Shown here: positions 41,954 to 64,000 of the stretch, piece by piece | Layout of the letters: each line of letters begins with the position of its first letter | Numbering within the stretch: position 1 is the first letter of the stretch | Source: Limonium bicolor | Taxonomy: Eukaryota > Streptophyta > Magnoliopsida > Caryophyllales > Plumbaginaceae | Assembly: GCA_023374045.1 (NCBI GenBank) | Contig: CM041777.1 | Location: forward strand, 465,277,827-465,341,826 | Direction: 5' to 3' | Length of the DNA stretch: 64,000 nucleotides | Position numbers and translations under genes: made by a program | The notes under the pieces: model-generated | Told to the model about the DNA's origin: nothing | Seen by the model: the letters and a program-made list of their open reading frames with translations, nothing else | The model's database searches: none

Positions 41954-42301
41954 TGTAACACCCCAACTATAAATACAATACTTAACAACGGTTGTAGCGG
42001 AATTGAAACTCCACACATAACATATTCCTTGGGTGCTACACGCCGTTAACCACCCTCGTGGCTAACAAGGCTATTACTTACACAATGTACCAATCTGATG
42101 GACAAGATTACCGAGCATTACACTTTACATTACCAACCGTTTCCAAACCGAAATACTTACATTTACATTACAACCGTACTGAGTCTATACCTTCAACTAC
42201 CGATTATCAAACTTCGGTCTTACATCTCTTACAGCTACATAAACAACTAAATACTATCCATGTTTACAGCTACCCCCCCTACTCTCGAACGGCTGCCAGC
42301 T

Positions 42302-44055
42302 TGTGAGCCTCGATTTTAAACCCTATCCTATGTGGATTAAGTTGATTGGGATCTAGTCGGGTTTTAGGTCCACTTATAACCTAAGATTAACAACTATGTC
42401 ATTAAACAATAATTATTAAAACCTAAGCTAGCTCACTGGAACCTATTATGAGTCGCCACCTAATTTTTACCTAGAGTAAATTAGGAAAGGTAGAGTTCGG
42501 GTTCGGGGGCTTGATATTCGACTTAATTAGGGTTCAATTACTTCATTACCCTAGAAGTCGTTTTTCCTCTACTTAGTTTAATTACGGCTTATTACGAGTC
42601 GTTTTAAGCTAAGTGCGCGAGCTTCTGTTTTTTTTGTTTTTTAGCATTTTTTGACTGAAAATAAAAGTGAAAGTTGAAATTACCTAAACTAGGGTTTCGG
42701 AGGCAAAATTATGTCAAATTTTATTTCCGTCCGTAGCCACGGACCTAATGTCCGTAACCACGGACCCTAGTTAATCTATGTGAAAATAAAGTCGAATTAA
42801 ACAGAAAACAAAATTTTGAAAAGTCCGGGCCACGGACAGGATGTCCGTAGGCCCGGACATAGTTTAACAAAACCTAAATTTTTAAAATTTTAAAATCCCG
42901 CCGCCGTCCGTGGGTGTCCGTGGCCACGGACAACCCGTCCGTGGTCCCGGACCATAGGTCCGGGATCCCGGACCACCCACGGACAAGGGTTTTATGGTGG
43001 TTCCTGAAGGTGTTTTCGGCTCAAAATTTATGCACGTGTAGCCTGAAAGGTGTAAAATTCGTTAGTAATTGAAAGATTGCAGTTTGAAGTCGAATTATGT
43101 ATGAAACTTGGCGAACAGTAACAAGGCAGAAACAAAAGTAATTAGCAATACAGAAGCGTAAAAAGGTTAGTTTGAACCCAAAATTTGACAGAGAGTTAAT
43201 AAGGTCGTGGAGAGTTAGAAAAGTAGAATTGCAACCTGTTTTACCTTCGAATTTAGGAGGATTCTTCACGTCGGGATTCTTCGGAGGCCTCGTTGATGGC
43301 GGATCCAGAGAACTTCGAACCCAGCTTCTGACTCCTTGTTGTTCTTGATGTTCTTCACGTTTTGGTGCTGTTTTGGTGGGGGTTTGATGATGGATGATGT
43401 TGTGGGAGTTGAAAAATGTGTTTTGGTGTTGATTTTGGTGAGATTTCGGTGTTTGATCGTGGCTCTGGGGTTCAAAACGTGGAGAGAGAGAGACGGCTGC
43501 CTTCTTTGAGAGTCTAGGGTTCTTGAAGTTCTTCTTTGATCATGGGATAAGGTTCCTTATATAGACCTCTTTAAAGATAGAAAAATCCGGTAAAAACCGA
43601 GATTTACCGACGTTTTAGCTCAAGGGCTCCAAAAGGAATTTGATTATGAAATTTCACACATGGGTAAAGGATGATATTTCTGATTTTTCTAAAGTGGAAT
43701 CGAATTTTTTGGATATTGGAATATTTTTGAATTCAATTTCTCGTCAGATTCAATCAGAAATTACTAGAAAATTATTAGAAATTTGAAAAATCAAAATTCC
43801 AACGCCATTATGCTTAAAATGTCATCCTCTATCATGGGTTAAAATTTCACAGCATTTTGAATTGATTTGACCCTTATTTGGAGGAGAGAGAAAGCCTATA
43901 GGGGGCTTAGGAGCCTTGAAAAATTACGAAAATGCCCCTGGAGATGACTAAGCTGTCCCTAGTACTCTGAAATGTGCCGATCGAATTGGGAACCCTCGCT
44001 ACTAGCCTATTAGTAGAGACTCTCTTCCGGGGGGGTTGAAATTTTGGGTATAACA
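42302..44055 (-). repeat. 3' LTR of Ogre-like element (1754 bp)
   Basis: Direct repeat of 49262-51008 with scattered single-base differences, mostly in short runs. It contains an inverted-repeat cluster of GTCCG/CGGAC (42729-42984) and a TATA box CTATATAAGG on the minus strand at 43555-43564. Short frames inside it duplicate those in the other LTR and look non-coding. Confidence 0.93.
43535..43570 (-). promoter_or_regulatory. TATA box of Ogre-like LTR (3' copy)
   Basis: The minus strand reads CTATATAAGGAACC. About 30 nt downstream a leader begins that leads into a run of CT dinucleotides. The identical copy in the 5' LTR at 50508-50517 would drive the element's transcript. Confidence 0.55.
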
Positions 44056-44075
44056 GATTGCCCCCCGTCAACTAG
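44056..44075 (-). promoter_or_regulatory. Polypurine tract of Ogre-like element
   Basis: The minus strand reads GACGGGGGGCAATC directly before the LTR start TGTTATACCC. Its position fixes the 3' end of the element. Confidence 0.75.
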
Positions 44076-44159
44076 ACTTTGTAATGGAAATGAAAAGGCT
44101 AGTTGATGCTTGAGTGATACCCCAAAATTATGGATCTTAAAAGACCACACGTGCAGTCC

Positions 44160-44485
44160 GACAAGTTACGTCGAGCTATTCTAAGGCGCTGACTACCTAT
44201 GAGTAAAGTGGAAGGGTGTCGAGCGGTTCTAACTGGCGTCGACCACCTAAAGGTGATAATGAAGTAATGTCAGACTGTTCTAAGGCGCCGACTACCTATA
44301 AGGATGATATGACGTCAAGCTATTCTAAGGCGTTGACCACCTATAATGAATGAGATGATGTCAAGCTATTCTTAGGCGTTGACTACCTATAATGAATGAG
44401 ATGATGCCAAGCTATTCTGAGGCGTTGACTACCTATCATGAATGAGATGATGTCAAGCTATTCTGAGGCGTTGACTACCTATCAG
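44160..44485 (-). repeat. Minisatellite 1, about 45-60 bp units
   Basis: About seven units share (G)TCAAGCTATTCTAAGGCG followed by TTGACTACCTAT and a variable spacer ending GATGATG. The last four units are most alike. It lies just upstream of the 3' LTR, where Tat/Ogre elements are known to carry variable tandem repeats. Confidence 0.85.
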
Positions 44486-44574
44486 TGATTGAAAATTGGT
44501 GTTGGGTCGAGTTCTTCTATTCGGGTGAGTTCTGCTGCTCTAGTGAGTTCTGCTGCTCTGGTGAATCTGAATCT

Positions 44575-44950
44575 TTGGCTGAGAATCTGTATCTCTGAAG
44601 AGTCTGTACCTTCGGCTAAGAATCTGTATCCTTGAATAATTTGTATCTTCAACTGAGAATCTGTATCTCTGATCGGGTGAGAATCTGTATCTCTGAAGAA
44701 TCTGTATCTTCGTGGTGAGAATCTGTATCTCTGATCGGGTGAGAATCTGTATCTCTGAAGAATCTGTATCTTCGGGGTGAGAATCTGTATCTCTGAAGAA
44801 TCTGTATCTTCGGGGCGAGAATCTGTATCTCTGAAGAATCTGTATCTTCGGGGCGAGAATCTGTATCTCTGAAGAATCTGTATCTTCGGGGTGAGAATCT
44901 GTATCTCTGAAGAATCTGTATCTTCGGGGTGAGAATCTGTATCTCTGGTC
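44575..44950 (-). repeat. Minisatellite 2, 38-bp units made of two 19-bp halves
   Basis: The repeat alternates GAATCTGTATCTCTGAA and GAATCTGTATCTTCGGGG. About nine units are present, several perfect. Because 38 is not a multiple of 3 and the unit lacks stops, it creates an artificial 180-codon open frame on the minus strand (44540-45082) that cycles through all three readings. Confidence 0.9.
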
Positions 44951-45242
44951 TATGATGAGGAGTTTCGTACGGACGGATTCAAGGTAAACTTTATGCAAAT
45001 GATCATGTTGAAAGTGATGCAAATGATATGGATGATATAAAAATGACATTCGGATGCTTCTGGGGACCGAAACCCGTTCCAATGCTCCTTGTTGGTATAC
45101 TATGGGGACTTATTGCCTCTGCCCACCAACTGGGGTGCTGGGATAACTTCTAGATTACCAAGGGGACTTATTGCCACTGCCCACTAGTTGTTTCTCCCAA
45201 GAAGTTGACATGAAGATGGGGACTTATTGCCTCTGCCCCGCC

Positions 45243-45555
45243 AACTTAGATCGCGCTCTGTCTCGTACCTGTCTCGCACTGAAGATGATACTAGGTCTCG
45301 TACTGGTCTCGCACTAGATGATGACGCTCGGTCTCGCACTGACGAAGGTGATGGGTCTCGCACTGACGAAGATGCATGGTCTCGCACTGACGAATATGAT
45401 GGTCTCGCACTGATGAAGATGCATGGTCTCGCACTGATGAAATGCATGGTCTCGCACTGATGAAGATGCATGGTCTCGCACTGAAGTCTCATACTAAATG
45501 GATGAAGAAAAAGTCGGATTTCGCATTGATTCTGGGTCTCGTGCTGAATGAAGAT
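45243..45555 (-). repeat. Minisatellite 3, GGTCTCGCACTGA units
   Basis: At least ten copies of GGTCTCGCACT(GA) are spaced 20-27 bp apart, with GATGAAGATGCAT spacers in the later units. Open frames on both strands here are products of the repeat. Confidence 0.85.
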
Positions 45556-45649
45556 GCCGGGTCTCGTACTAAAGTCTTGAAAATGATGGGTCTCAAACTA
45601 AGAATGAATCGGAATGATAATGGTCTCGTGCAAATGATGAAAACTGATT

Positions 45650-45870
45650 ACTGGAGTGCCAAACACGGCAATGATGATAAGATGTATGCAATCAAAATAT
45701 TTGAAGGATACTCGTTCAAAACAGGAAACTGTTGGAAAAGGTGCCAAACTTGGCGATGTTGAGGTGTTATGCAAAAGTTGTAAAATGCAACTAAAGTGTT
45801 TGTTGGAAGCTTGCCAAAACAAGGAACTGTTGAAAAATGTGCCAAACATGGCAATGCTTGAGAAAACTCT
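45650..45870 (-). repeat. Diverged repeat, about 105-bp units
   Basis: The phrase GTGCCAAAC(A/T)(C/T)GGC(A/G)ATG recurs near 45656, 45741 and 45840. It is preceded in the last two units by GGAA(A)CTGTTG(G)AAAA. It is a fourth, weaker tandem array. Confidence 0.6.
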
Positions 45871-47819
45871 GCTGAAAAGGAAAGTGAAATGATCATTTCC
45901 TGACTAAAAATTTCATATCTACAATTTGTTTCTTAAGAAAATGAACATGCCGCTGGTGGAAGTGTGTGGTGTTTGTTGTGGTGTTAAAGGCTTTTCCGGT
46001 GTTCAGGATTTGCGATAGACCTGGGATCAGGTTATGATTTTGGATGGTGGTCTGGGTTATGACGGGCCTGATGTTTTTGTGGAGGTAAGGCCAATGACAG
46101 GCTTGAGGTGGAATGGTGGTGGTGATGTTTGAGCTCTGGGTTCGAATTGGTGTTGTCATAGCAATTGTTGGAGCCAACAATTGCCCCCAGTATTTTTCCT
46201 TTAAGACAATCTGAGCTAGAGTTCATGGCGATCGATCGGAACGATCGATTGCCCCCAGTATTTTCTTTGGCCAAACGTGCGAACAAGTCTCGCCCTCACA
46301 TGGTCAAGGATTATGTTTTGATGTGGTGCTTCTTAACCTACACTCGACGTGTTTGGTATTTGCACTCGTTTCTCACTTACGGTCATAACTTCTCAACCAT
46401 TGAATTTGACATTTGTTAGATTTACGTGTTCAACCTGTTACTTTCACTCGATTGGATACACAACTACTAAGTCGGAAGTCTTTTGAGCTTATAACGTGGC
46501 CATGGGTGTGATGAATGACAATAGGATAATGGCGGAATGTTTAGGATATGTGGAGCTTTAAGGGTGACCAAAGCTGCAACTTGCACCACCTCTCGGACTT
46601 ATCTTCTTTGCCTTGAAGTTGTTTGGCTACTTTATGATGGCTTCGCTTATGGACTTGGGGCTTGGAACTTTTGGATTGTTCCTTGCATCTTCTTTCTTTT
46701 TTCCGATTTTGGATATCTTCGAGGCTTTTCAGGTTTGCCTTTCTTTGAATTTCCTTTTCTTCGGGGTTCTTGTGTTTCCCGGCTTTGAACTTTGAGAGCT
46801 ATTTTTGATATTAGCTCATTTGGATCCTGTGTCACTTTGGGACCATTTGCGGATCGTTTCGTCATGCTGGTAGCGGTTTTGCTTCTTTGGACTTGTGTAG
46901 TTGTTGCTCAAAAGACGGGCTCCTTGCTTCCTTTGGTCACCGGGTCGGTTATTCATCATTGGTTGGCTTGTTTGTGGAGCTTGTAGTGTTGTAAAATGGG
47001 TCATACATGAAAAGCTCATCGGGGGTGCCTAGGGTGTAATGTCAGGGTTCACAAGCTTTTTGGCTGTGTGGTGTTGTACCTAGGTGCTTCGTCATTCCTG
47101 ATAGTTGTGTATCCGTTCTTTGTTACTTTTTACAGGTTTAAACGTAAATTTACAAATCATCTCCTTCGGTCGGAGTTATGCTGTTTACCTCACCTTTGAA
47201 TGTGGTCTCACCAGAATCGTGTAAAAATGACACGCTTGTTCACTCATGGTTTTTCCACTCAGGACACTCTCGTGAATTTCACTCAGAGACTAGTTCGCAC
47301 GCGTAAACGAAAGATTAAAGATGACGATCCTGAACTCAGATTGCCCCCAGTATTGACCTGGGGTTTATGACAAAACAGATGTGGATTTTGGAATGCTTTG
47401 TGGATATTATGGGATAGTCCATGGTGGGAGGACGGACATGTTCACCCTTTTAGAAACAAAAGACAAGTCGTTCTATTCCATAGTCGGGAAATGATTACTC
47501 TGTGATCCCTTAATAAAACACATTTTTTTTGTTTTTGTTTTGTTGAATGAATGCACACAAAATTACGAAAATAGAACTATGCTCTAATTCACGAATGGAA
47601 AGATAACATCAAAAGTTGTGATCTAAAATGATAAAGGAAGCTAACTACCATAAAAGTTAGAAGAATGATTGAGAAAAGAAAACTACTAAATCGAGAAAAC
47701 TTGTGAAATAGTGATGTTGAACAGTCTGATGCCAACGTGTTGAAGACTCGAGCTGTTGACCGTCGGGGCGCCATTGACCATGATTGTCTTCCTTCCAAAC
47801 TTCGAGTAGGCCCTGTAAA
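45871..47819 (-). other. Non-coding interior with repeated TGGGGGCAAT motifs
   Basis: No gag or pol is visible. The plus-strand phrase ATTGCCCCCAGTATT occurs near 46180, 46248 and 47340; on the minus strand it resembles the element's own polypurine tract. A GATCGATCGGAACGATCGAT palindrome lies near 46230-46250. Open frames such as 46537-46788 have no recognisable domain. Confidence 0.5.
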
Positions 47820-48745
47820 ATGTCTGAACTAGGAATGCCTATGGGTTATGTAGGAAGTAACTGGGCCTGAGTCGTCGCCAAACTGAGAGTGAAGTGCATA
47901 GATTAGGGTGATTCCTAGACCAGAACGGACATATAGGCCTGAATCCCTTAGTCCAGAAATTGAGCAAACAAGATGAAGGAAGTCACATGGACCGTGAATG
48001 GGCCACTGAGCCCTGAGGTCTAAGATTCGTTTGATGTTCTTGTTGGGCCTTGAAGCCGGAAACTGGAATGAATGAAGTATGCAAACTATCTAGGATCCAA
48101 ATGTTTTATGGGCTGAAATTCTAGATTGAGAGCAAAGCTCATGGGCCAAAACTACGAATTGGTCTATGGGCCTAGATGAAATGAGTCATGAGTGTGGTAC
48201 TTGGGCCGGACTGATTGCTCTATATATGAACTGGAATTTGGGCCGAGTGGTTTTGGTTGGGCCTAAAAGATGGCACCTAGATCTAGGATTTTGGGTCAGA
48301 GCCCGAGTGAAGAGTTTTCCTAGACTAGAATGAGCCCTTGGGCTGAAATGTGTTTGGGCCTGAAATAAAGAACATGGGCTGGAACGATCCCTAAATCACA
48401 AATGGGCCTATCTTTCTTTGGGCCAGAGAAGATGGTTGCTAAGCCGAAAAAGATTTTATTTTCAGGTCTTGTGAGTTATTTCAAGTTCAGGTGGATTTCT
48501 TTTTTTATGGGCCTAGAACTAATTGGATAACCCAAATTGGGCCAGAAGAGAAATCACCTAAGCCTACACTTTTGGGCCGAAGCCCGAACGACTCACATGT
48601 TAAACCAAGCAGGGCCTCTGGGCCGCAAACAAATAGAGCTGCAAATTCGTGCTGGGCTAGGTTGATGCAGGAGAAGTTCCTATCAATCTCTAGGCTGGGT
48701 AGTGGGCCGATCATACAAGCAAACAAGGCCCACACAAATTCAACA
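47820..48745. repeat. Dense array of TGGGCC/TGGGCY motifs
   Basis: About 25-30 occurrences of GGGCC or GGGCT, mostly as TGGGCC(T/A/G), are spaced roughly 20-45 bp apart in otherwise unrelated AT-rich sequence. TGGGCY is the core of plant site II elements bound by TCP factors. Whether this array binds them is inference; it could also be a decayed short-period repeat. Confidence 0.6.
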
Positions 48746-49239
48746 TGTCCTTACTAGACGTTTGAATCAAACCGGGTATGGATCGATCCGGAGAGGTGCT
48801 TGGGGCATGGGCCCAGGTCACCACAAAGGAATAGGGCTTGCACGCTATTCTCTTTGGGCTTCCCCACTCTTTTCACATCACCTGAAGGTGTGCGTCTACG
48901 GTCGGGTCTTTGACTGACCAAACAAAGGGCTAGGTAAGGGCACTGCCAGGAAAACGCTTGGGGCTAAAGCCCAGGTATTAAGGGGGTGTGGTTAGACGAC
49001 ACCCTCCTCTTTTCCCCCGCTTATTCACATCACCTAAAAGGTGTGAGTCCCTGACAGGGGACCCTCAAATGGGTCCCGGGGTGAGATCGGTTTACGTGGA
49101 CCCTCGCTCTCATATGATGCAAAGGTACAGAAATTGAAGTGCGCACGAAAGTAAACAAACAAAGTAATAAAGCCACAAATAAACATTTTCGAGTTAAGCC
49201 CTCTTTCTTAGAATTAAACAAGTTAAAATTAAGAAGTTT
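48746..49239 (-). other. Element leader with an imperfect direct repeat
   Basis: Two segments (about 48800-48900 and 48955-49055) share GCTTGGGGC, AGCCCAGGT, a TTTTCACATCACCTGAAGGTG-like hairpin and a GGTGTG end. No gene is visible. It follows directly downstream of the primer site, so it is the untranslated leader of the transcript. Confidence 0.5.
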
Positions 49240-49258
49240 GTCCCCAGCAGAGTCGCCA
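49240..49258 (-). promoter_or_regulatory. tRNA primer binding site of Ogre-like element
   Basis: The minus strand reads TGGCGACTCTGCTGGGGAC, three bases from the LTR end. This is the primer-site type reported for Tat/Ogre elements and complementary to a tRNA-Arg 3' end. The tRNA identity is recalled, not computed. Confidence 0.75.
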
Positions 49259-49261
49259 GTC

Positions 49262-51008
49262 TGTGAGCCTCGATTTTAAACCCTATCCTATGTGGATTAA
49301 GTTGATTGGGATCTAGTCGGGTTTTAGGTCCACTTATAACCTAAGATTAACAACTATGTCATTAAAACAATAATTGTTAAAACCTAAGCTAGCTCACTGG
49401 AACCTATTATGAGTCGCCACCTAATTTTTACCTAGAGTAAATTAGGAAAGGTAGAGTTCGGGTTCGGGGGCTTGATATTCGACTTAATTAGGGTTCAATT
49501 ACTTTCATTACCCCTAGGTCGTTTTTCCTCTACTTAGTTTAATTACGGCTTATTACGAGTCGTTTTAACTAAGTGCGCGAGCTTCTGTTTTTTTTGTTTT
49601 TTAGCATTTTTTGACTGAAAATAAAGTGAAAGTTGAAATTACCTAAACTAGGGTTTCGGAGGCAGAATTAGTCAAATTTTTTTCCGTCCGTAGCCACGGA
49701 CCTAATGTCCGAACCACGGACCCTAGTTAACTATGTGAAAATAAAAGTCGAATTAAACAGAAAACAAAATTTGAAAGTCCGGGGCCACGGACAGGATGTC
49801 CGTGGCCCGGACATAGTTAACAAAACCTAAATTTTAAAATTTTAAAATCCCGCCGCCGTCCGTGGGTGTCCGTGGCCACGGACAACCCGTCCGTGGTCCC
49901 GGACCATAGGTCCGGGATCCCGGACCACCCACGGACAGGGGTTTTATGGTGGTTCCTGAAGGTGTTTTCGGCTCAAAATTTATGCACGTGTAGCCTGAAA
50001 GGTGTAAAATTCGTTAGTAATTGAAAGATTGCAGTTTGAAGTCGAATTATGTATGAAACTTGGCGAACAAGTAACAAGGCAGAAACAAAAGTAATTAGCA
50101 ATACAGAAGCGTAAAAAGGTTAGTTTGAACCCAAAATTTGACAGAGAGTTAATAAGGTCGTGGAGAGTTAGAAAAGTAGAATTGCAACCTGTTTTACCTT
50201 CGAATTTAGGAGGATTCTTCACGTCGGGATTCTTCGGAGGCCTCGTTGATGGCGGATCCAGAAGAACTTCGAACCCAGCTTCTGACTCCTTGTTGTTCTT
50301 GATGTTCTTCACGTTTTGGTGCTGTTTTGGTGGGGGTTTGATGATGGATGATGTTGTGGGAGTTGAAAAAGTGTTTTGGTGTTGATTTTGGTGAGATTTC
50401 GGTGTTTGATCGTGGCTCTGGGGTTCAAAACGTGGAGAGAGAGAGACGGCTGCCTTCTTTGAGAGTCTAGGGTTCTTGAAGTTCTTCTTTGATCATGGGA
50501 TAAGGTTCCTTATATAGACCTCTTTAAAGATAGAAAAATCCGGTAAAAACCGAGATTTACCGACGTTTTAGCTCAAGGGCTTCCAAAAGGAATTTGATTA
50601 TGAAATTTCACACATGGGTAAAGGATGATATTTCTGATTTTTCTAAAGTGGAATCGAATTTTTTGGATATTGGAATATTTTTAAATTCAATTTCTCGTCA
50701 GATTCAATCAGAAATTACTAGAAAATTATTAGAAATTTGAAAAATCAAAATTCCAACGCCATTATGCTTAAAATGTCATCCTCTATCATGGGTTAAAATT
50801 TCACAGCATTTTGAATTGATTTGACCCTTATTTGGAGGAGAGAGAAAGCCTATAGGGGGCTTAGGAGCCTTGAAAAATTACGAAAATGCCCCTGGAGATG
50901 ACTAAGCTGTCCCTAGTACTCTGAAATGTGCCGATCGAATTGGGAACCCTCGCTACTAGCCTATTAGTAGAGACTCTCTTCCTGGGGGTTGAAATTTTGG
51001 GTATAACA
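49262..51008 (-). repeat. 5' LTR of Ogre-like element (1747 bp)
   Basis: It pairs with 42302-44055. It contains the GTCCG/CGGAC inverted-repeat cluster (49685-49937), a TATA box at 50508-50517 (minus) and a CT-rich stretch at 50435-50450 in the transcribed part. Confidence 0.93.
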
Positions 51009-52476
51009 CAGCTCCATTGTACCTGTAAAGTAATGGGGGCCCCCAAAGGGGGTCAGCACCTTCGCTTGTATGGTAATCCCGCAGCCCGCATGCTACCGGG
51101 CCACGCACAACTAATTGTCGAGTGAGCATGCAGGTTATTTTATTTTAAGCACGCAAGAAACTATAAACACATAACATATTTATAAGCACACACATCCCAT
51201 AAAAAGGATACAACATAACATTCACCCATCACATTGGTTAGATCACCTCATTGTATTCCTTGTCCCTTGGGGCTCTACCTTAACGGGACTTAATTCTTAC
51301 TAAGCAACACTCACCGAATTGATCGGGCTACAACTATTTCTTTCACTGAATTTGGGTTGATTTTGGTTATCAACTTACACATCACCGCACATATCTCGTA
51401 ACAACACGTACACCACACCCCATCGTTCTTCTTAGAGAACGTACACTTTACTTAAGGTGTGTCGGACTAACTATAAGTCCGCACACCGCATATATTTACT
51501 TTACTTAGATGGGTCGGTCTTAGTATAGATCCGTACACATTATACACATATTCCCCTAGTCCGACATGAGTCAGATAATAGCTTTGGTTAAGCTATCCCG
51601 GTCTTAATATAGAACCGTACACATTATACACATATCCCCCTAGTCCGACGTGAGTCAGATAAATAGCCTTGGTTAAGCTTGAGGGTGGTTGTAATCCAAG
51701 AAGGAAAACAACCATAACATAACAGAGTGGGAGTTAATTCACATATATACATCAACTCCCAAACAACGCGCGCGACCGGAACGACCGGATTCCTCACCCC
51801 CATTATATATATACATATTAGTTAGAAGTTCATTTATGGAACTTATCACATACATGCACCATTTGGTGTTACAAGTTTGGTTAATCACACACAAGGGAGG
51901 TAACATCCCATTCGACAATATGGACCACAACATTCATTAAATGACAACATACTAAACGAAGTCACACACATCACACACAACCACAACATACACTAACGAA
52001 CGGATAGCCGTAGTTAGAACGTTCCCGTAGGTTGGGACGTTTAGTCCGAATACCGATCTCTTATGTGATCCTAGAGACGGTTAGCTACGGTTAACACATA
52101 ATTAAGGTTAAACGGTATCGGAATTATTTACGCCACATTAATGAATTACTATAAACTCATTTCATGCTTTATCTTGCAAGGTGGCAAGCACACAGAAAAA
52201 CAAGTTGGCATACAAGCCGGTGTAATCCGGTAGGACACAGGTTGCAAGAAAACCATACCTTGGTCCTTGCTGAGTACGAGTCCCGCCAAACGTAGCTCCT
52301 AGACATGATTGATAATGTCGGTTAATTACTTATTAAATTCCGGTTTACTAAACACTTTACACGATTGAATTACATGTTTTTATGCTTAAACTCACACTTG
52401 GTTGTCATCGTTATACCTACTAGGGTTTACTACTTAGCCCACACTTAGTTTGTTTTTTTTTTACATGTTTTGGGCC

Positions 52477-52660
52477 GTCCGACCCACCGTCCGACCCACA
52501 AACTGGGTTGGACCGTTCCAGAAACTTTTTCCGTCTTTCAAATCCACCCGTCCGACCCATGTCCGACCCAAGACCTCTGGGTCGGACCATTCCAGAAACA
52601 TCGACGGGTGAATTAACAGGGGCTGTCCGACCCACCCTGGGTCAGACCACAGGGTCGGAC
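52477..52660. repeat. Three-unit GTCCGACCC stem-loop array in solo LTR F
   Basis: Same stem sequence and unit order as in element A (4169-4352), with CAGAA after the units, located 2.2-2.45 kb from the LTR start. Confidence 0.85.
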
Positions 52661-54926
52661 AACACCAGGACTTGTCCAAAACTTGTCAAACTTTCTTCCA
52701 AACTTCTCCTCAAGCCTCCTAATGTATTCTAACATCATTTGGCACAATTAACCCTTCATACAACAACCATAAAACTCATTTTATAACTCCTTAAACACTT
52801 ACAATGTTTCTTACCAAAATTCCAAACACTTATAATGTTTTCTCTTTAGTTTCTCTAAGTGGTGTTTCATAATTGTGATAACCACTATGCCAAAAATGTT
52901 TCCTCACCATCACAACATCATCTCCCAAGCATCTTTTCTTACTAACTAAATCTCCTTTTTCACATCTTTCCTAAACATCATTTCCTCCTTGTACATCAAC
53001 ATTCCTAAACCTTAAACAAACTTCTCCAAGGCTTTAATACATCCTCAAAACACTCATTGAATTCCTATAACTTCTAAGATGATACCTATATCCTTGTAAC
53101 ACTCTAAATCACCTTAATACATGTTTTCTTCCCTAACAAAACATTCATTCATTCCTCACATTTCCTAGTTCACCAAAGCTCATTTAAACACTTAACTCCT
53201 CTTATACATTACCCAAATTTTGCCATAGGTTCTCCTAGCACATTGTCATACCAAGACACTCTTTTTCTACCAAAATTTCGCCATAACCTCCCCATAAACC
53301 TAACACATCCATTCTCACCATTCCTCATCCTTTTCATTCCTAATCTAGCCATACCCTTTCAAGGGTCCTACCAGCACACCATATCAATCCAAAATTCAAC
53401 AATATCACAATATAGCTCCAAACTTAATGAACCACAATATAACCACAAACTCAAATCATTCGGCTCCAAGGCCCTCAATTCAAACCAACACTTCACAAAG
53501 TCTAACTAACCACAATCAAGCACATTATTGCTCCAGATTTTATTTCATCTTTTGTTCTTCCCAACCCAATTCTAAAACAATTAATATAGGCATTAAGGTA
53601 GATTTCTTACCTTAATTCACAAGTTTCTCCTTAATCCTCCTCTTGCTCCTCATCTCCTCAAAATCGGTCAAGAGGGAATGGAGTTTCCAAACTCCATCCC
53701 AACATTCAAGAAACACAAAATACATTCCATTAATTATCTAAACCCTTAGGAAATCTTAATTCAACAAAAAGGGCTTAGAGTACAAGTTAGGGTTTTACCT
53801 TTGGAGATTTTTGAGAGGGGTTCTCACCCTTGAATCAAGAAGGGAATTACTCCACCATTGGAGGGTTGAAATGGAGCTCAAAACCAAGAAGAAAAACAAG
53901 GTAAGAGAGAGAGGCAAAATCGGCTACCACTACAAGATGGAGAAAAATGAGGTTTTTCTTGGAGATTTTTACCTTAGGAGAGAGAGGAGACTCCAAGCTT
54001 CCAGAATATGCCATTTTCTCTTCAAATGGGAAAAACCCATGGAGATGAAGTTCATCCTTTTGAAATTCAGAAAAGAGAGGAAGATAGAGGATGATGAGAG
54101 GAAGAAGAATATGTATTTTATTTTGCATTTGGAGCATCGAGTTGGCTAGAGCATGTGGAGGAAGATGAGAAGCCATGGAAGGAGGGGGAAGAACTTCACA
54201 ATCGGCTGCAACCAGGAGGGAGAAGGAACAAATCGCAGAGAAGAAAGGAAAGGGAGGAAAGAGAAGAGGGGAAAAAGAAATAAAGGAGGAGAGAGAGGGG
54301 AAAGGGGTACTTGTACCCTTTTTGCTTTTTGGCTCTTTTGATTTATTTAGTTAGCTAACTAGTCATGTGTGAGGGGGCTGTCTACATTAATAAAAACCGG
54401 CCCACTATTATATACACACTGGAGCGTTTTTCTGTCTTTACAGAAAACGCTCGTTTATTTACCCGGTTTGGCACTATTCACTAACCGGGCCCGTTTTCCG
54501 GAATTTTCTCGTTTATTTAATTTTAATGGTTATTATACTCCCATTAATGTTTATTTATAGTTATATGATCAACTATAATTTTTACGGGGTCATTTGACTG
54601 CTTAAAGTCACGTTTTCGGGTTTTCTCGAAAAACGCGCTTTAGACTCCGTTAGCGTTTTAACGCATTATTCGGATCCGTTTTCTTCCGGAATTCTTCCCA
54701 CATGTTCTTAGTATGTAATTAGGGTATAAAAATATATTTATAACCCTAGTGAAGGTTATATACCTCCTAAAATAATTAAAACGTTTTCACATTTTGTGAC
54801 TTTTACTCATTTTTTTTCCTTTTTGGTTTTTATTTCTTCACCAATGATCTTAAGGACTTAATTAGCCTTAGAAAATAATAATCACATATTTAAATATCAC
54901 TTAAAGGTTTGGGGTATTTCATTTTC

Positions 54927-55810
54927 CCATATTCCCATTTGATTATTAACTGCACAAGAGCAATACTAAAACACTCAGTCCTACAGAGTGCAGAGGCATA
55001 AACCCTCAACAATTAATACCCAATAGAAAGAATCCATTCCCAATAAGGCTGATCAAACTCGACTCATGGATGAAACAATACCCATTATCCAAAGGAAGAA
55101 TTGCCAACACAGATATTTCCTATATTCCCAGTTACCCCACTAGATTATTAATTGCACCAGAGCAATACCAAAACACTCAGTCCTACAGAGTGCAGAAGCG
55201 TAAACCCTGGGCAGTTAATATCTAGTGAAACAACTAGATAGGAGGAACCAATAACCAAGGAAGTTATACGTTCAAGGCTCAGTTAGTCACACAAGCTGAG
55301 TTAGTCACACAACCATTCCCTTTTAGAAAATCCATTTTAGCTTAATTAGTGTTTGTCAAAAACATCCCTTAAGTCTCGTTAGCAAAGCATAAGAGTACGA
55401 GAAATCGTACCTGGTATATGAAGAACAATAATTAACTCGAATGAGTGATCCCCTAATAGTAACCTATAATTAAGGTGTTCCAAGTGTCGATTAGTTAAGG
55501 GACTTATAAACTAATCATCCTCTATTCCTACTGATTTATAGTTCCAGGTTTACCATTACTCTCTCACAAAGGTTTGGGCTTGATTTTGCTACTTAAATCC
55601 TTTGTTAGGCCCATCTCGTTTAATTTGGAATGATTTAGGATTTATCCCTGAGAGTGGCCCAAACTCTCTTTGAATTGTTTAAGTGGGCTTTTGGAGTTCA
55701 TAAACTAGGGCTCAATAGGTTAACCCAAGACCGTGTTACGTTAGTGTTGTTTAATTAAACTCTTAAGTTATCAATGACTATTTTATTACACTCCGATTAA
55801 AATCCTAGAG

Positions 55811-55864
<54 letters not shown>

Positions 55865-58596
55865 ATTCACACAAGCAATGTGATTTCCTTCATCTATTTT
55901 TAATGTATTTATATATATACATATACATACATATATATATATATATCTTTATGCATTAAGATTTATCCAGAACAATTTTCAGAATTTTTATTGTATTTAA
56001 TTATTGTTAATAACTTTTAGACATATCCACAACTGATATATATATATATATATGGTTTATAAAATAAAGTATTTTCCTTTATTTAGTTAATATATATATA
56101 TATATATGCTTGAACCTGTATTAGAATTTATTTAAGTCATCCCCTATGTAGCTTATTGTATTTAAATTATCTTTATTAACTTCAACATTTATCTGCACTC
56201 CATGTATGTTTAATAAAGTATTTCTCTTGCTACATCTTAGAATATTAGCTTCTATAATATTTAGTTAATATAAATGTTGATTTATTTAGCTCCTTGTTTT
56301 AACCCAAGTTACTATTTAATTCCCTTTTTATATATGTGTAAATATATATATATTCCCTTAGTTTTAATTAAGAATGTTGACTTCCATATTACATAATAAT
56401 TAAATGTGGATTAGCTTAGTTCCTTGATTTAACATCAGCTTCTATTTTTATTCCTCTCATATAAGTATATATATTTATATATGTAAATAATATTTTTCTT
56501 TTTTTTACTTCACTTAAAAGTTAATTCCCAAAATATTTATAAACATACTGTTACTAAATGTTAGTTTAATCTTTTCATTATTTCCCAGCCTAAAAAGTTT
56601 ATTATTAAACTATACTTTAATTTTTGTTACATTAAAAACCTTATATTATAAGTTATTCTTAAGAAAAATTCATAAACACAATTTTTTAAACCCATTTACC
56701 ATTGTCCAAAAATTCCCAAATTAAATATAGAGTAGCTATAACATTTTAGACATATTATAAAATTTTTATTTCATAAAAATATCTTTTTTATTTAACCAAA
56801 TAATTCCATAATACCCGTAACTTGCAAAAATCATAACTTACGTTTAAAAACTCCAAAACCATATTAATTTACATCAAAATGAACTAGATTTTATAAGGAA
56901 TCTATGGTTAAAATTTCAAGTCAAAATACATTTGGGAAGGTATTTTAATTAATTCAACAAATTAGGGTTTAATTCTAGAAATATTATAATTCATAACCAA
57001 CTTAAACTCCTTAGATCTAATCTCGGCCGTCCGTTTCTAAAACCTACAATCGGACGGCCGGAAATCCTTGAGTTCATCGCCAACCTCCAGCGATTACCCG
57101 AGTACTAAATTGCCAATTCCTTCAAATCTACAGAATCAAATTCGATGATTTTTGTTTCTATGGATTCGAAATTCAATTCCGGTTCTAATGATACCAAATT
57201 TGCTAGCTAACATGCGGAATTCAGTATTTTTCGATTCTGGTTCGAGGTTAGGGTTATTTCGGGTTTCCGATTTCAATTCTCACAAATTCTCTCAATCTAA
57301 CGCATAATAGTTGAAATTGGAACATGGTTCTGACCGGTAATGCAATGTCGATTAGCAAAATCGAAAGAATTTGAAGGAAAACTCACCGGAATTGCACGAA
57401 TCGAAGGAATTTGATTTCGGTTTCTGAAAAAACTCAACCTTTACGAGCTGATTGAGTAGCCAACTTTGCAACACTATAAGTTTCGGTACAGATCGAGTTA
57501 GGCTTTGTTCTTGGGCTTAATCTAAAGAGGAAACATAACTCGACACATTGATAGCAAGAACTCACTCTAATTTGCATTATATAAAAAGAAATCCGACCCG
57601 AAAGTTACGAGTTTACCTTACATTTTTCCTATGATTTTATGTGATGTCGGATCACGAACTTTAGGCACCTCTTTCTTACAAACGGTTGGGAATTAGCCTT
57701 GGGTGTAAACATGAAAGTTATAGAGGGATTAGAGATCTACACAACAAGCTAAAGAACTCGAATTTTGGATGAGAAACGAAGAAGTTATGATCAAACGAAG
57801 TTTACCTGAATTCGGTGAAAACTGGGAATTTGGGTTGCGACTTAGCAAGGAGGCGACTTTGGATTGATTTTCCGGTGGATTTAGGAAGATTTAGGTTAAG
57901 TGTGAGCTATGGTTGCAAAGAGGAGATTAAGGAGAGTAGAATGAAAAAAACGGTGTTGCAAAATTCGTAAAGATGAGTGAGATATAAGTGTCTAAAGTTA
58001 GGGCAAAAACGCTGATGGCAGATAGGATTCTGGCCGATTTTCGTGCTAAGTACAGGCGACCCGTGTGAGATTGACATGTGGCAGTTTTCAAATTTTTGGC
58101 TCTAAACTTCATTCTATCATAACTTTGGCTAGGATGATCCGTTTTTGATGTTCTTTTTATCGATCTTCATGGTTTTCCATAACCTATTTATTGGTATAGG
58201 TTTCATGGGCTGGTTTGACCATTGTCAAAAAGTCAACCCTAGCAATGCTTGAGAAGCTTTAGGGTTTCTTGGATTTTATATTGACTTTTATGCTTCAAAT
58301 CAATGTTCCAACTCTTTCTAAAATCTTTATAATATACTTGGAGTGTTTAGAAATTTTTCCAAGATTTATTGACTTATAAATCTTATTATTAAATTCATAA
58401 TACTATATAATAATATATAGTAATCCAATATTTAATAGTATTCTTTAGGATTAAATGGTTGAAATCCCATGATTTAATTTTCATAATTCCATATAAGGAT
58501 TTAATGATTTATTATTCACAATCCCATACTATAATATAATAATTAATAGTATTATTTACGGTTTTAATAAAAGAAAATTAATTTAGGGGTATTTCA
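54927..58596 (-). repeat. 5'-proximal part of element E 3' LTR
   Basis: On the minus strand the LTR starts at 58596 (TGAAATACCCC), right after the purine tract AAGGGGGATATAT. With 41145-41953 it makes about 4.48 kb. A direct repeat of about 180 bp (54935-55030 and 55115-55215, both with AACACTCAGTCCTACAGAGTGCAGA) and long AT runs lie in it. One perfect 10-bp stem-loop CGGCCGTCCG/CGGACGGCCG is at 57024-57060. No gene is visible. Confidence 0.8.
55815..55861. repeat. (AT)n microsatellite
   Basis: More than 20 AT dinucleotides in a row. Shorter AT runs follow near 55910-55945, 56037-56055 and 56090-56107. Confidence 0.95.
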
Positions 58597-59003: not shown

Positions 59004-59423
59004 TCATGCGAATAGATGTGGGTACTTCACTCTCATAGAGTCCTCAGTCTCCCAAGTAGCTTCCTCAACCCCATGATGCTCCCAAAGAACTTTCACCAGT
59101 TTGACTGATCTGTCTCTCGTCTCTCAGACCTTCGTGTCCAAGATCCGAATAAGAGTATCCTCATACCTCAGTGTAGGCTCAATCTCCAATCTCTCTGGCT
59201 GCAATACGTGAGAAGGATCAGGCATATACTTCTTCAGCTGAGATACATGAAACACGTCGTGTACCTTCCCCAACTCCGCTGGTAGCTCTAGTCTGTAAGC
59301 AGCTGGGCCCACTCGCTCTGTAATCCTGTACGGACTGACATACTTAGGGCTTAGTTTTCCCCTCATCCCAAATCTGAATATCCCTCTCATCGGAGACACC
59401 CGTAAGAAGACCATGTCACCCAA
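59004..59423 (-). pseudogene. Integrase C-terminus and chromodomain segment
   Basis: After two in-frame stops the frame resumes with GDMVFLRVSP, the GPY/F-type integrase C-terminal module (YRITERVGPAAYRLELP). It runs into HVSQLKKY and, after a TGA at 59124, a chromodomain with VKVLWEHHGVEEATWE and a YPHLF ending. Chromodomains of this group guide integration to particular chromatin. The last codon before the true stop is at 59007. Confidence 0.85.
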
Positions 59424-59495
59424 CTGAAACTCGAGCTCTCTGGTGCGCTGATCCCCATAGGATTTCTGTCTAGACTACGCTGCCCTCATGTGCTG

Positions 59496-60566
59496 CTAAA
59501 AAACTCTAACGTCATCCTGCAGTGTCTGAACGTACTCGGGCCCAATCAGGACTGCCTCGGTAGGGTCACTCCATGATAAGGGAGTCCGGCACGGCCTGCC
59601 ATACAGAGCCTGGAATGGTGCCATGCCAATAGATGAGTGGTAGGAGTTATTGTAGGAGAACTCCACCAGGTGTAGACGTTCTACCCAACTCCCCAGATAG
59701 TCTAAAGCGACTGCTCGCAGCATATCCTCCAGCGTCTGAATCGTCCTCTCAGTCTGCCCATCAGTCTGAGGGTGAAAGGCTGTGCTAAGGCGTAACTGAG
59801 TACCAAACGCCTCCTGCACCTGTCGCCAAAATCTACTGAGGAAACGTGTGTCACGATCGGAGACGATCGTCTTCGATACCCCATGGTACCGGATGTGCTC
59901 TGTGGTGAACACCTCAGCCAGCTTGGGCACCTTCCATGTGTCCTTGATAGGTATAAACCTGGTTGTCTTGGTCAACCTATCGACTATCACCCAAATAGAA
60001 TTCAGTCCACCTCTAGTTGGAGGGAGACTGACCACAAAGTCCATGCTGATGTCGTCAAACTTCCAGCACGGTACTGGTAATGACTGAATCTGGCCTCCTG
60101 GTCGACGATGCTCAAACTTCACCTTCTGACAGGTGAGGCATCGGGAGACGAAATCTGCTACATCCCTCTTCATCCCGGTCCACCAGAATAACTGCTTTAA
60201 ATCCTTGTACACCTTGGTGGCTCCAAGGTGTACTGATAATGTAGAGGAATGAGCTTCAGAGAGAATCCTGGTCTGAAGTTCTGTCGCATCCTGAGGAACG
60301 TAGAGTCTGCCTCTGACTTGAAGGTGTCCCTCGTTGTCTAGCTCGTACTCATACTTCAGACCATCAGTCAAACCGTCTGCTAACTTCTGCCTGACGCCCT
60401 GTAGGTATACATCACTGTCCTGGGCTGCGTATATCTCCTCAGCTATCGTGGTCGTCTCTATCAAGGCTAGGAGTGAGTATGCTCTCCTGCTCAGAGCGTC
60501 TGCCTCGACATTCCCTTTACCTTCAGTGTACTGAAGGTTGTTGTCATAATCAGCCGCTCGACCCAT
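59496..60566 (-). pseudogene. Integrase catalytic core of element E
   Basis: This is the longest intact stretch, about 356 codons. It joins an RNase H tail (EADALSRR) to an integrase zinc-binding region (H...H...CLTC) and a catalytic core with DFVVSLP, SDRDTRF and FHPQTDGQTERTIQTLEDML. All three acidic residues are present. It ends at a TAG where Gln or a similar residue is expected. It is out of frame with the upstream RT segment. Confidence 0.92.
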
Positions 60567-61522
60567 TGTCGCTGTCTCAGGTTCAGCTCCTTCTGGGTCC
60601 AGATGTACTTCAGACTCTTATGGTCATGTGTGGGGTAATTTTCTTCGTGCTTCTTCAACTGTCGAGAAGCATACGCTACCACTCCGCCATTCTGCATCAG
60701 TACCCTACCAATCCCTCTGCCTGAAGCATCACAATACACCTCGTATCCCTCGTTCCCTTCAGGGATCACTAATACTGGAGCTGTGGTCAGGGCGTCCTTC
60801 AGCGCCTGAAAGGAGACCTCACAAGCCTCTGTCCATACAAACGGACTGTCCTTCTTCATCAGAGAGGTCAAGGGCTTGGCTAGCCTGGAGAAGTCCTTCA
60901 CAAAGCGTCTATAGTAGCCAGCCAATCCAAGGAAACTCCTATCCCCTGTCACTGTGCGAGGTCTATGCCAGCTCTTCACTGCCTCAATCTTAGCTGGGTC
61001 TACTGAAACTCCCTCAGCTGAGATCACATGTCCAAGAAATGACACCTTGTCTAGCCAGAATTCACACTTGCTGAACTTGGCATATAGTTTCTTCTCTCTC
61101 AGAGTCTCCAAGGCTGTCCTCAAATGCTGCTCGTGTTCCTCCCGACTCTTGGAGAATATCAAGATTTCGTCTATGAACACGACCACTGACTTATCCAACT
61201 GGGCTTGGAAGACTCTCTGCATCAGATCCATGAATCTCGCTGGTGCATTGGTCAGTCCAAACGGCATCACTGTGAACTCGTAGTGGCCGTATCTGGTCCG
61301 TAAGGCTGTCTTCTCTATATCTGACTCAGCTACAGCTATCTGATGATATCCGGAACGTAGATCAATCTTGGAGAACACCTTAGCTCCTCTCAGCTGGTCG
61401 AACAAGTCATCAATCCTGGGCAGTGGGTACTTGTTCTTGATCGGGACATTGTTTAGCTCCCTGTAGTCGATGCATAGTCTCATGCTCCCGTCCTTCTTCT
61501 TGACGAAAAGCACTGGAGCACC
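60491..61522 (-). pseudogene. RT and RNase H of element E
   Basis: RT motifs are visible in order: [31 protein letters not shown], then FIDEILIF where FIDDIL is usual, and SFLGHVIS. RNase H begins YCDASGRG and continues to NYPTHD, where a segment of about 28 residues is missing in frame before HKSLKYI (junction about 60621-60630). That segment normally holds further catalytic acids. The frame then shifts near 60550. Confidence 0.92.
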
Positions 61523-62217
61523 TCACAGTGAGACACTGGGTCTGATGAAACCCTTATCTAGTAGCTCCTGCAGCTGCTTCTTCAACTCAACCATCTCTGC
61601 AGGGCCCATCCGGTAGGGAGCCTTAGCAATCGGTCCCATGCCAGGTATGAGGTCGATGTTGAATTCAACCTCTCTCAGCGGTGGTAGTCCAAGTAGCTCC
61701 TCTGAAAAAACATCGGGGTACTTCGACACAATGGGAACATCGCTCTGGAACTTCGGATCCGTCCTCAGATCCTGGGCATAACAGTAGTAGGCGGTAGCGC
61801 CCTTGGACACCTCCTTCATCAGGGATAAAGCCAATACCACCTTCACAGTCGGCTGCTTAGGTTGCATTCGGTATGACACTGTGACCCCTGTAGCTGACTT
61901 CAGGAGGAGGCGATGCTCCACACAGTGTAGTCTGCCTCTGTACCGCTGTAGCGTGTCCATGCCCACAATTATGTCGAATCCCATGCCAGGGAAGACTATG
62001 GCATCAAGAAGGAAGTCTGCTCCCTTGATGTGTATGCTCAGATTCTTGCACTGCTTGCTGCACTTGATCAACTCTTTGGACGGCAACAAGACTGAGCAGT
62101 CATGGATATCCTCTGTAGGGGCATCTATCTTAGCATGGTACACTTGTGATATGAAGGAATGGGGGGCTCCAGAATCAAACAGGACTGTGGCCTCCACTCC
62201 ATTAACTAGGAACGTGC

Positions 62218-62291
62218 CTGAATTTATAGGATAGATTTTTAAGATTCTGGGTAAACGTTCCAAGGTAATTACTCAGGGTTAATGTTTATAC
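62218..62291 (-). other. Candidate 74-nt intron between linker and protease
   Basis: On the minus strand the donor is CACAG|GTATAA and the acceptor AAATTCAG|GCACG, with TTAAC as a possible branch site. Joining restores a Gly codon and the continuous protein phrase VITGTFLVNG, the usual pre-protease junction of this group. The intron contains an in-frame stop, so unspliced RNA could not encode Gag-Pol. Confidence 0.7.
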
Positions 62292-62366
62292 CTGTGATGA
62301 CCATTCCATTACTCTTTGCTTGAGCCTGGTTCAACACATTCAACCTGATCCCTGATTTTCCAACCC
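62292..62366 (-). CDS. 75-nt linker exon before the protease
   Basis: The segment reads GVGKSGIRLNVLNQAQAKS and ends VIT, resembling the R-V-x-A-L-x-Q-x-A-x-x-S...VVTGT linker found before the protease in Tekay-type polyproteins. It is bounded by a TTCATTGTAG acceptor and a CACAG|GTATAA donor. Both ends are phase 1, so the exon fits between the zinc-knuckle exon and the protease exon without shifting the frame. Too short to be recognised without its neighbours. Confidence 0.65.
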
Positions 62367-62462
62367 CTACAATGAAGCAATAAAATTCTTAGAATTTCCA
62401 TTCTTATTGAAAGCTTCATGAGCAACTTAAAATTTACAATGCTGAAATTGTAAAGTACAAGG

Positions 62463-63177
62463 CTAGGTCTGTCTAAAGGTTAGGTTTAGACGGCCCGGTT
62501 TCATGTGGGTCTGGTTGATGATGGGTGTGGGGGCTGTGTTGGGCTTGATTCTCTTCACCCCGTGGTAGATGAGTCTAGCTGCCCCACCAAAAATCAGTAC
62601 ATCACCCGACTTCAGGAGGATCTTGGTAGCAAGGTCCATCCTCCTTTGATCACCAAATAGGAACTCCGCGTGTCTCCAAGCGATATGGACACCACTGGAA
62701 CTCCTCTGGTGACGGACTCTGGCAATTCGGCCTTGTCTTGGTGCATCCCTAGCTTACCCTCCTTTCCATAGAAGTTGATGATGCACACGTCGGAGGTTAG
62801 GTCTGGGACGGGCTCGTCCTCCAACTCTTGTGCTGCCTTAACTGCAGCTCTAATGATGGTCTGCAGTTCCTCCGGGATTGGTGGCACCTCCACCTTTTCA
62901 TAGCTCTTGGTGGTGTGGTTCCACTTCTTACCTAGGCACATGATCTTCACCTTCATGGTTGAACCATTCTTGAAGGTATGGGTGTAAAAACTTCCTTCCT
63001 TCACACCTAATTCCCTGATCTTGAGGATCAATGCATACTGGACTGCTGGGGTCAGGTACTCTCGTAGTAGGATCATCCCTGGTCTCAAGACCTCACATTT
63101 CTCTGGTGGGTGTGGTTTGGCTTCAAAGGGGATGTTGGGTGTGGAAAATGGCAAAACAGGAAAGCAAATATCGAAAG
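62463..63177 (-). pseudogene. AlkB-like 2-oxoglutarate/Fe(II) dioxygenase exon in a retrotransposon
   Basis: About 237 codons from a candidate acceptor (TTGTTCAG|CT) to TAG at 62463-62465. AlkB enzymes oxidatively demethylate bases in DNA or RNA. Visible motifs: MCLGKKW followed by a Tyr-containing loop, then NFY eleven residues before HQDK (iron ligands His and Asp, 62735-62743), PVVSISLGDT, a FGDQRR-type stretch, SGDVLIFGG, YHGV (third iron ligand His, 62562-62564) and RLNLTFRQ at the end (2-oxoglutarate-binding Arg). Order, length and the closing motif match plant ALKBH1-like proteins. A single-base loss near 62668-62672 splits the domain, the N-terminal part ending at a TGA at 62612-62614. 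The start by itself lacks an ATG, supporting translation as a Gag fusion. Confidence 0.9.
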
Positions 63178-63330
63178 CTGAACAACAATTGCCATTAAAT
63201 AAATAAGTCAAGGTTCACAACTGGTAATGGAAGGTTCGAAACAAAACAAAATAAAGGGTTTATAGTTCATCCCTTTTACATTGACAAAGAAAAACTAGCC
63301 AATGAAATGTGAAGAAAGTAAAAGTCTAAC
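63178..63330 (-). other. Candidate 153-nt intron between zinc knuckles and AlkB
   Basis: Donor GAGG|GTTAGA, acceptor TTGTTGTTCAG|CTTTCG. The interior is AT-rich with an immediate in-frame stop (GGT TAG), in contrast to the GC-richer exons. Both sides are phase 1, so splicing fuses Gag to AlkB in frame. A second possible acceptor, TTTGAAG|CC about 50 nt further on, is also phase 1. Confidence 0.65.
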
Positions 63331-63723
63331 CCTCTTCGTGAGGGAAGGTAGTCTCAAGGTGCAATCGGGTAATCATTGCGGAATCGACGAGGTCCACCAG
63401 GTTAAGGATCGGTGCCTTGCCCGGCCTCTGGGGGTAGTTCTGTCCCGGCCTCTGTGGATGGCTCTGGGCAGGGCGGCTGGTTGATGGTCCAGCACCTCCT
63501 GTGCCACCTCGACCTCCTCCTCCATTAGTCTTAGGAGTTGGGGCTCTAGTCACTGACCCAGTACGTGGCTTGTAGTCCCTGGAATCCGGGTTCGAGAAGC
63601 ACTCGAAGGATCTGTGCCCCTTCCTGCCACAGTGGTGGCACGTCACCAAGGTTCCGTCACACTCCTTGCCTGGGTGGTCCCGCTCGCACTTCCTGCAGAA
63701 GTACTTCCTTACAGGTTGGTTTC
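63331..63723 (-). CDS. gag: Gag exon with two CCHC zinc knuckles
   Basis: The exon encodes 130 codons, open throughout. The first knuckle is CRKCERDHPGKEC (C-X2-C-X3-H-X4-C), the second CHHCGRKGHRSFEC (C-X2-C-X4-H-X4-C), a pair typical of Tekay-type Gag nucleocapsid; they bind packaged RNA. A Gly/Pro/Arg/Gln-rich tail with two QRPG repeats follows. The last part (LDLV-like, ending THEE-type residues near 63340) is less typical of Gag and could be affected by the exact donor used. Bounded by candidate introns on both sides. Confidence 0.85.
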
Positions 63724-63792
63724 CTGTTTCAGTTCAAGGTTAGTAACGTGATAACAAAATGTAACCACATTGGAGATTCTAATTTATCTCAC
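63724..63792 (-). other. Candidate 69-nt intron in gag
   Basis: Donor TTTAGGG|GTGAGA, acceptor CTGAAACAG|GAAACC, with a perfect TTACTAACC branch-site consensus about 17-20 nt before the acceptor. It is AT-rich and carries in-frame stops. Splicing is phase 1 and gives RGNQPVRKYFC across the junction, leading directly into the first knuckle. Confidence 0.75.
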
Positions 63793-64000
63793 CCCTAAAT
63801 GGCTGGGAGCGGAGGGGCTTAGCATCCGCATGATAAGAGACAATGGCTTTCTCGTTCCCTCCCTTGAAAAATCTTCCTTTCTTGTCATGATTCTGGGAAG
63901 AGCTTCCTCCATTCCCTCTTCCACCATCTCCCTTCCTCTTGCCTAGCACAGAGTCCTGGTAGGCAATGGTGGTCTCGCAGGCATTTGCGTCATCCGCTAG
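63793..64000 (-). CDS. gag: Gag C-terminal region upstream of the knuckles (partial)
   Basis: An open frame of about 69 codons runs from the right edge of the window (LADDANACETTIAYQDS) through a Lys/Gly/Ser-rich stretch to QPFRG. Such basic, low-complexity sequence links the Gag capsid region to the nucleocapsid. The capsid part and start codon are outside the window. Confidence 0.7.

Follow-up and report, generated by a model that had tools for sequence, protein, structure and literature searches.

A Ty3/gypsy retrotransposon family in Limonium bicolor carries an AlkB dioxygenase domain within its gag–pol region. Comparison of genomic copies shows that the domain is present across the family and is under purifying selection, and that Gag is joined both to AlkB and to Pol at phase-matched GT–AG sites. 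In the account that we favor, with moderate confidence, this is a chromovirus-like family with a long-captured ALKBH1C/D-type alternative exon, where one splice donor would give Gag, Gag–AlkB or Gag–Pol and the enzyme would be borne in the particle. The copy described below lies at the end of the window, the whole 64,000-nucleotide stretch of DNA that was analyzed.

The window element and its family

A Pfam profile search identifies gag, AlkB, protease, RT–RNase H and integrase of a single element on the minus strand at the window end (Table 1). The gag capsid domain falls beyond the window in the adjoining locus L092 (PF03732, 1.5e-16), and the window element and L092 together show the Ty3/gypsy order of capsid domain, protease, RT, RNase H and integrase. 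The zinc knuckle flanking AlkB scores just under its threshold (zf-CCHC, 4.1e-4, 20.7 bits against a cut-off of 20.8). The original prediction had placed AlkB in a chromovirus, between knuckles and protease. The position within a Ty3/gypsy element is borne out, and the assignment as a chromovirus is likely, given a weak PF00385 match under the curated cut-off.

PF13532 matches both halves of the AlkB ORF on the minus strand (7.7e-20 at 62612–63214 and 8.3e-18 at 62463–62753), and NFY, HQD, YHG and RLNLTFR occur in the order that had been read from the sequence originally. The exon proper runs from 63177 to 62463, and the sequence immediately upstream of 63177 is intron. A one-base frameshift separates the two halves (715 bases versus 716 in intact copies) and the exon B splice donor is gone, which makes the window copy a dead one. 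These two breaks were absent from the original prediction, as was the fact that AlkB forms an alternative exon, closed by a stop codon of its own, in the gag–pol intron.

Table 1. Parts of the AlkB-bearing element, with positions in the window
Feature	Position	Strand	Remarks
Gag exon A, 3' part	63793..64000	-	runs past the window into L092, site of the capsid domain
Gag intron (GTGAG...CAG)	63724..63792	-	precisely missing in part of the copies
Gag exon B (zinc knuckles of CCHC type, linker)	63357..63723	-	ends at the donor position common to the AlkB and Pol joins
Intron section, gag exon B to AlkB	63178..63356	-	absent in 15/15 Gag–AlkB joined copies
AlkB exon (ALKBH1-type, PF13532)	62463..63177	-	own stop 62465-62463; acceptor TTCAG immediately upstream of 63177
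Non-coding stretch, AlkB stop to Pol acceptor (TTGTAG)	62367..62462	-	acceptor AG in 42/42 loci with context found
Pol linker exon (short, 75 nt; both ends in phase 1)	62292..62366	-	
Third intron (GTATAAAC...TTCAG), preceding the protease exon	62218..62291	-	
Protease exon and RT start	61523..62217	-	RVP_2 1.7e-24
Reverse transcriptase and RNase H, end frameshifted	60491..61522	-	RVT_1 1.5e-35; RT_RNaseH_2 3.1e-22
Integrase	59496..60617	-	Integrase_H2C2 1.1e-18; rve 9.2e-5, under its cut-off
Integrase C-terminal SH3-like part	59124..59474	-	SH3_Tf2-1 1.2e-25
Chromodomain remnant	59007..59117	-	PF00385 0.0023; 18.2 bits, cut-off 25.1
3' LTR (TGAAATACCCC...GTTACA)	41145..58596	-	split by nested insertion 54921-41954; matches the 5' LTR part in L092

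The LTR pair is confirmed, with L092 holding part of the 5' LTR followed directly by the primer-binding site (PBS) TGGTATCAGAGC. This PBS is probably of the Met-tRNA type, and the lineage may be Tekay-like. The LTR parts in the window and in L092 differ by a K2P distance of 0.024 over 2,499 aligned sites, equivalent to an age of about 0.9 My at a substitution rate of 1.3e-8 per site and year. An insertion of ~13 kb (window 41954–54921) is nested in the 3' LTR with a GAAAA target duplication on either side. Its ends (TGAAATACCCC...GTTACA) are similar to those of the enclosing LTR, and blastn gave no match between it and the gag–pol or AlkB of the window element. Inside it, a 189-aa minus-strand frame of repeated units without a Pfam match (44540–45109) is probably a tandem repeat. 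A short piece at 8556–8702, 45% alike to the integrase protein, stems from a different Ty3/gypsy element.

The family is large. An AlkB-specific 35-mer occurs 879 times in the 2.92-Gb genome at up to 3 mismatches, while its reversed control does not occur. An AlkB DNA query gave 2,751 first-look candidates, and all 40 that were scored span the whole query at 97–100% identity. The original prediction had proposed a search for AlkB flanked by knuckle and protease; among 30 loci chosen by AlkB, the knuckle lies upstream in 30 and the protease downstream in 29, the locus without a protease being L003. Conversely, choosing 30 loci by the knuckle gave 29 with AlkB sequence. Likeness to the AlkB, knuckle or junction sequences of the window guided the choice of every locus, and the two sets overlap at four places, leaving 56 unique loci for later counts. 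Among these are 50 full-span AlkB copies; 17 have a frame open as far as the natural stop and 33, including the window copy, do not.

Some loci depart from the common layout. L033 and L052 miss part of one AlkB end, and L051 is interrupted ahead of AlkB. L038, L042 and L060 share only the first 85 AlkB bases followed by a common foreign sequence, 97–98% alike, and are perhaps a chimeric or non-autonomous subfamily.

With copies across the family, a single domesticated AlkB gene was rejected as an explanation. A single copy at this place was the outcome that the original prediction would have taken as an accident, and the genome holds hundreds. That a host ALKBH gene or pseudogene landed here by chance and has no role is hardly credible: the brokenness of the window copy would suit such an origin, but the high copy number, the recurrence of AlkB at the same place and the strong selection described below contradict it.

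Probable splice joins preserved in genomic copies

A search pattern for the Gag–Pol join that excludes the unspliced Pol acceptor has 30 matches, 29 with one base before the join and 1 with another. In all 12 of the 30 copies that were read, exon B continues in frame into the Pol linker with the AlkB region absent. The sequence at the join is ...TTCACCTG followed by GGGTTGG... in each of the 12, suggesting GTGAGG as the donor. A different donor, GAGG before GTTAG, guessed from the window copy, was rejected, with GT at that position in 2 of 30 copies. Among the AlkB or knuckle loci, the context of the exon B donor could be located at 52, and 49 of these retain GGTGAGG; the AlkB acceptor AG likewise stands at 49 of 52. 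The other introns behave similarly: the gag intron is precisely missing in at least 6 of 30 AlkB copies, and among the Gag–Pol joined copies the third intron is absent in 9 of the 12 read and the gag intron in all 10 that reach that far. In these copies of the window family, gag and pol come into a common frame once the GT–AG introns are removed.

The acceptors of AlkB and Pol agree in phase, and a Gag–AlkB junction was therefore predicted before searching. The predicted junction has 15 matches at up to 3 mismatches, 8 of them exact, and the reversed control has none. All 15 copies pass from exon B directly into AlkB and on through the spacer and linker to the protease, with the intron precisely gone. 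All 15 retain the third intron, located past the AlkB stop; the gag intron is absent in 10 and retained in 5, so the Gag–AlkB copies appear to derive from partly spliced RNA. One copy, L077, presents an open knuckle–AlkB frame of 339 aa. A 25-mer of the unspliced donor has 309 exact occurrences. In copies with an open exon-B frame, unspliced exon B reads into a conserved ...EEA-stop within the intron.

Deletion, recombination or descent from an older form without AlkB could also generate joined copies. An AlkB tree that includes 12 of the 15 Gag–AlkB joined copies requires 6 or more changes of the joined state, of which 3 are forced by well-supported branches; the bootstrap of this tree had not settled. 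The joined copies cluster on this tree, which suggests that some were inherited from earlier joined copies instead of arising anew, and the joined states may stem from few events that were later multiplied. Clustering of this kind speaks for nonsplicing origins, but breaks at phase-matched GT–AG sites, in three introns and in mixed combinations, argue against them. So do the searches for junctions from two other donors: the gag-intron donor joined directly to AlkB has no genome match at up to 3 mismatches, and the cryptic exon-B donor joined to AlkB has none either. Altogether, we consider it very unlikely that the joins are anything other than traces of splicing.

A separate issue is whether the joined product is the one that matters. 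AlkB might instead be a free-standing protein whose translation starts within its own ORF, from unspliced RNA, in the manner of the orchid element discussed below; the Gag–AlkB joins would then be by-products. The AlkB exon does have its own stop codon, and the orchid element encodes its enzyme separately, in an ORF of its own (PMC9289625). Counting against it, the first in-frame ATG of the exon sits in the conserved RPGM at the domain start and the residues preceding it are conserved too in intact copies, while the acceptor that joins AlkB to the knuckle exon in phase is kept at nearly all loci. We judge a free-standing enzyme to be unlikely and retain the fusion to Gag as the preferred reading.

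Identity, ancestry and selection of the AlkB domain

The element AlkB contains all of the HxD...H, RxxxxxR and N-x-Y pair motifs of AlkB/ALKBH dioxygenases. Compared with PDB chains, the intact copy L014 matches rice 5xeg best (1.7e-63), followed at a distance by E. coli AlkB (about 5e-21) and human ALKBH1 (2e-13); its 23 PDB matches at E up to 1 include no ALKBH5 or FTO chains. Plant relatives were drawn from the best 120 of 2,997 and the best 120 of 414 matches. Among the matches listed, the named plant proteins include ALKBH1C- or ALKBH1D-like "DNA N(6)-methyladenine demethylase" proteins, and identity to named plant proteins is about 40–51%. Plant ALKBH1C/D-type proteins such as rice 5xeg have the same domain from end to end; the element versions differ in being joined to Gag and in grouping as a separate clade. 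The ALKBH1-like type noted in the original prediction thus holds, and capture of a plant gene, also suggested there, fits the origin best.

The original prediction had further called for a tree, and among the plant host proteins used, the element AlkBs do separate as a clade of their own. In the 51-row tree, this clade, which includes the ORFs P0084, P0085, P0088 and P0204, lies apart from the plant host proteins used, with support of 100/99. The same clade has 82/99 once L093, a deeply diverged element found with the rice query, is added (59 rows, 57 distinct). It sits on a long branch, and the gymnosperm row Cryptomeria is unplaced. The four ORFs come from environmental contigs of up to 26.6 kb and possibly derive from retrotransposons of other plants. 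IMG/VR contained no viral relatives when searched with P0204, and a search with the AlkB alignment returned 4 loci at 31–33%. A CCHC motif search of the best listed proteins from three protein searches revealed no knuckle–AlkB fusion among annotated proteins.

A rice query gave 40,622 first-look candidates in the genome, and the 150 scored did not reveal an ALKBH1 gene of the host. Nearly all of the 150 are 444–447 bases long at 52–56% identity, resembling a single repeat group, and 140 are without a stop. L093 is one such match. In this one copy, the order of the window element recurs: a capsid domain of gag (PF03732, 3.5e-16), then knuckles disrupted by a shift, then an AlkB ORF only about 66% alike to the window DNA in the best aligned stretch. 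A donor and an acceptor seen by eye stand in phase ahead of AlkB and may be used for splicing. A 532-aa open frame in L093 was entertained as a Gag–AlkB fusion and rejected, the gag and AlkB frames being separate in the 2.2 kb read.

The AlkB exon is, by these comparisons of copies, under purifying selection about as tight as that on the protease, a core enzyme. The original prediction had proposed dN/dS among copies as a check; between subfamilies A and B it is 0.136, for 15 × 2 copies picked because they are intact. Across 62 full-span copies, broken copies included, changes common to at least 3 copies number 48 nonsynonymous-or-stop versus 96 synonymous, compared with 138 versus 60 for singletons (p=2.6e-11). 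The protease gives much the same picture in 56 copies (shared 40:85 versus singleton 100:42, p=3e-10), with the p values serving as guides since close copies are not independent. Subfamilies A and C differ by 0.136 in AlkB and 0.136 in the protease, and by 0.295 in the non-coding stretch after AlkB. The seven iron/2OG-site residues checked are each kept in 58–62 of the 62 copies: N134, H205 and R235 in 62, Y136, H145 and D147 in 61, and R229 in 58.

Known systems and a proposed role in the particle

The original prediction knew of no LTR retrotransposon with an AlkB domain, but one had already been described in orchids. The orchid Ogre/Tat elements (Gypsy_Pa_2799 of Phalaenopsis) have a separate ORF2 that ends in an ALKBH5-type AlkB, with m6A RNA demethylase activity in vitro (PMC9289625). 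A screen of 121 plant genomes reported there found the domain in two Phalaenopsis species only (PMC9289625). The orchid element and the window family are both plant Ty3/Gypsy elements with a fixed AlkB/2-ODD domain whose cofactor residues are kept (PMC9289625). The orchid element has gag–pol in one ORF and a PBS antisense to tRNA-Arg (PMC9289625), whereas the window family is chromovirus-like, with an ALKBH1-type domain as an alternative exon between Gag knuckles and protease and with the PBS TGGTATCAGAGC. It lacks two marks of the orchid lineage, its AlkB not being ALKBH5-type and its PBS, read as Met type, not of the tRNA-Arg type. Relative to the orchid case, the ALKBH1C/D-type enzyme, the chromovirus-like carrier and expression by a splice switch look new. 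Among the matches listed from the open-access PMC literature, there was no AlkB-bearing LTR retrotransposon beside the orchid one.

Plant LTR elements are mostly without introns, with Ogre and EVADE named as exceptions (PMC12786077; Ogre also in PMC6317226). In Ogre, EVADE and BARE1, as is proposed for the window family, splicing selects between Gag and Pol products; in the portions of those sources available to us, neither a third product with an enzyme exon nor introns in chromoviruses are described (PMC12786077, PMC6317226). AlkB domains also occur in plant RNA viruses of the Alpha- and Betaflexiviridae and Closteroviridae (cited in PMC9289625, available text). Compared by description, these viruses are likewise parasites with an AlkB of their own, but they are not LTR elements.

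The proposed mechanism begins with a plant ALKBH1C/D-type dioxygenase gene that would have been captured long ago by a chromovirus-like Ty3/gypsy family and retained inside the gag–pol intron as an alternative exon that ends in a stop codon of its own. Left unspliced at the donor after the knuckle exon, the RNA would encode a Gag that terminates a few codons later. Splicing of this donor to the AlkB acceptor would give an in-frame Gag–knuckle–AlkB fusion, and splicing beyond AlkB to the Pol acceptor would give Gag–Pol, such that splicing could balance the output of the three products. Placed behind RNA-binding knuckles, AlkB would enter the virus-like particle together with Gag. There it may oxidatively strip packaged RNA or single-stranded cDNA of methyl groups or alkyl damage, with m6A, 6mA and 1mA/3mC as candidate substrates. 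Demethylation or repair might keep the template readable or unmarked, either helping reverse transcription or hiding the element from methyl readers.

Host enzymes offer analogies for a role on the element's own nucleic acid, in ALKBH1 (PMC10469495) and in AtALKBH9B, which aids the ONSEN retrotransposon through m6A removal (PMC12786077, in the part available). The enzyme could instead act away from the particle, on RNA or chromatin of the host, and so weaken silencing of the element. The original prediction had raised both a role on element RNA or cDNA and one against silencing, and both stay hypothetical. Rice ALKBH1, which strips 6mA from R-loops and influences chromatin marks, gives this idea some footing (PMC10469495, available text), but the attachment to nucleocapsid knuckles suggests that nucleic acid of the element, rather than of the host, is the target. 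An action on the host is a doubtful alternative, and an enzyme working within the particle remains the preferred reading.

A broader proposition extends beyond the window family, and we see the case for and against it as evenly balanced. It holds that an old chromovirus-like clade makes an ALKBH1-type third spliced product, packages it and uses it on its own RNA or cDNA, following a capture independent of the orchid one, with at least 2 deeply diverged elements in this genome and probably others in other plants, given the four environmental ORFs in the clade; demethylase acquisition would then be a recurrent need of plant retrotransposons.

If this is true, the capture of an ALKBH5-type enzyme by orchid Ogre elements and of an ALKBH1-type enzyme here would make the erasing of methyl marks or damage on their own nucleic acid a repeated need of plant retrotransposons. 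The preference of ALKBH1 is for single-stranded or unpaired DNA, and its ties to adenine methylation there suggest that the target could be cDNA instead of RNA (PMC10469495, available text). The Gag–AlkB join predicts an enzyme inside the particle. One donor would choose among capsid, polymerase and accessory enzyme, and genomic copies alone suffice to read this switch, RNA not being needed.
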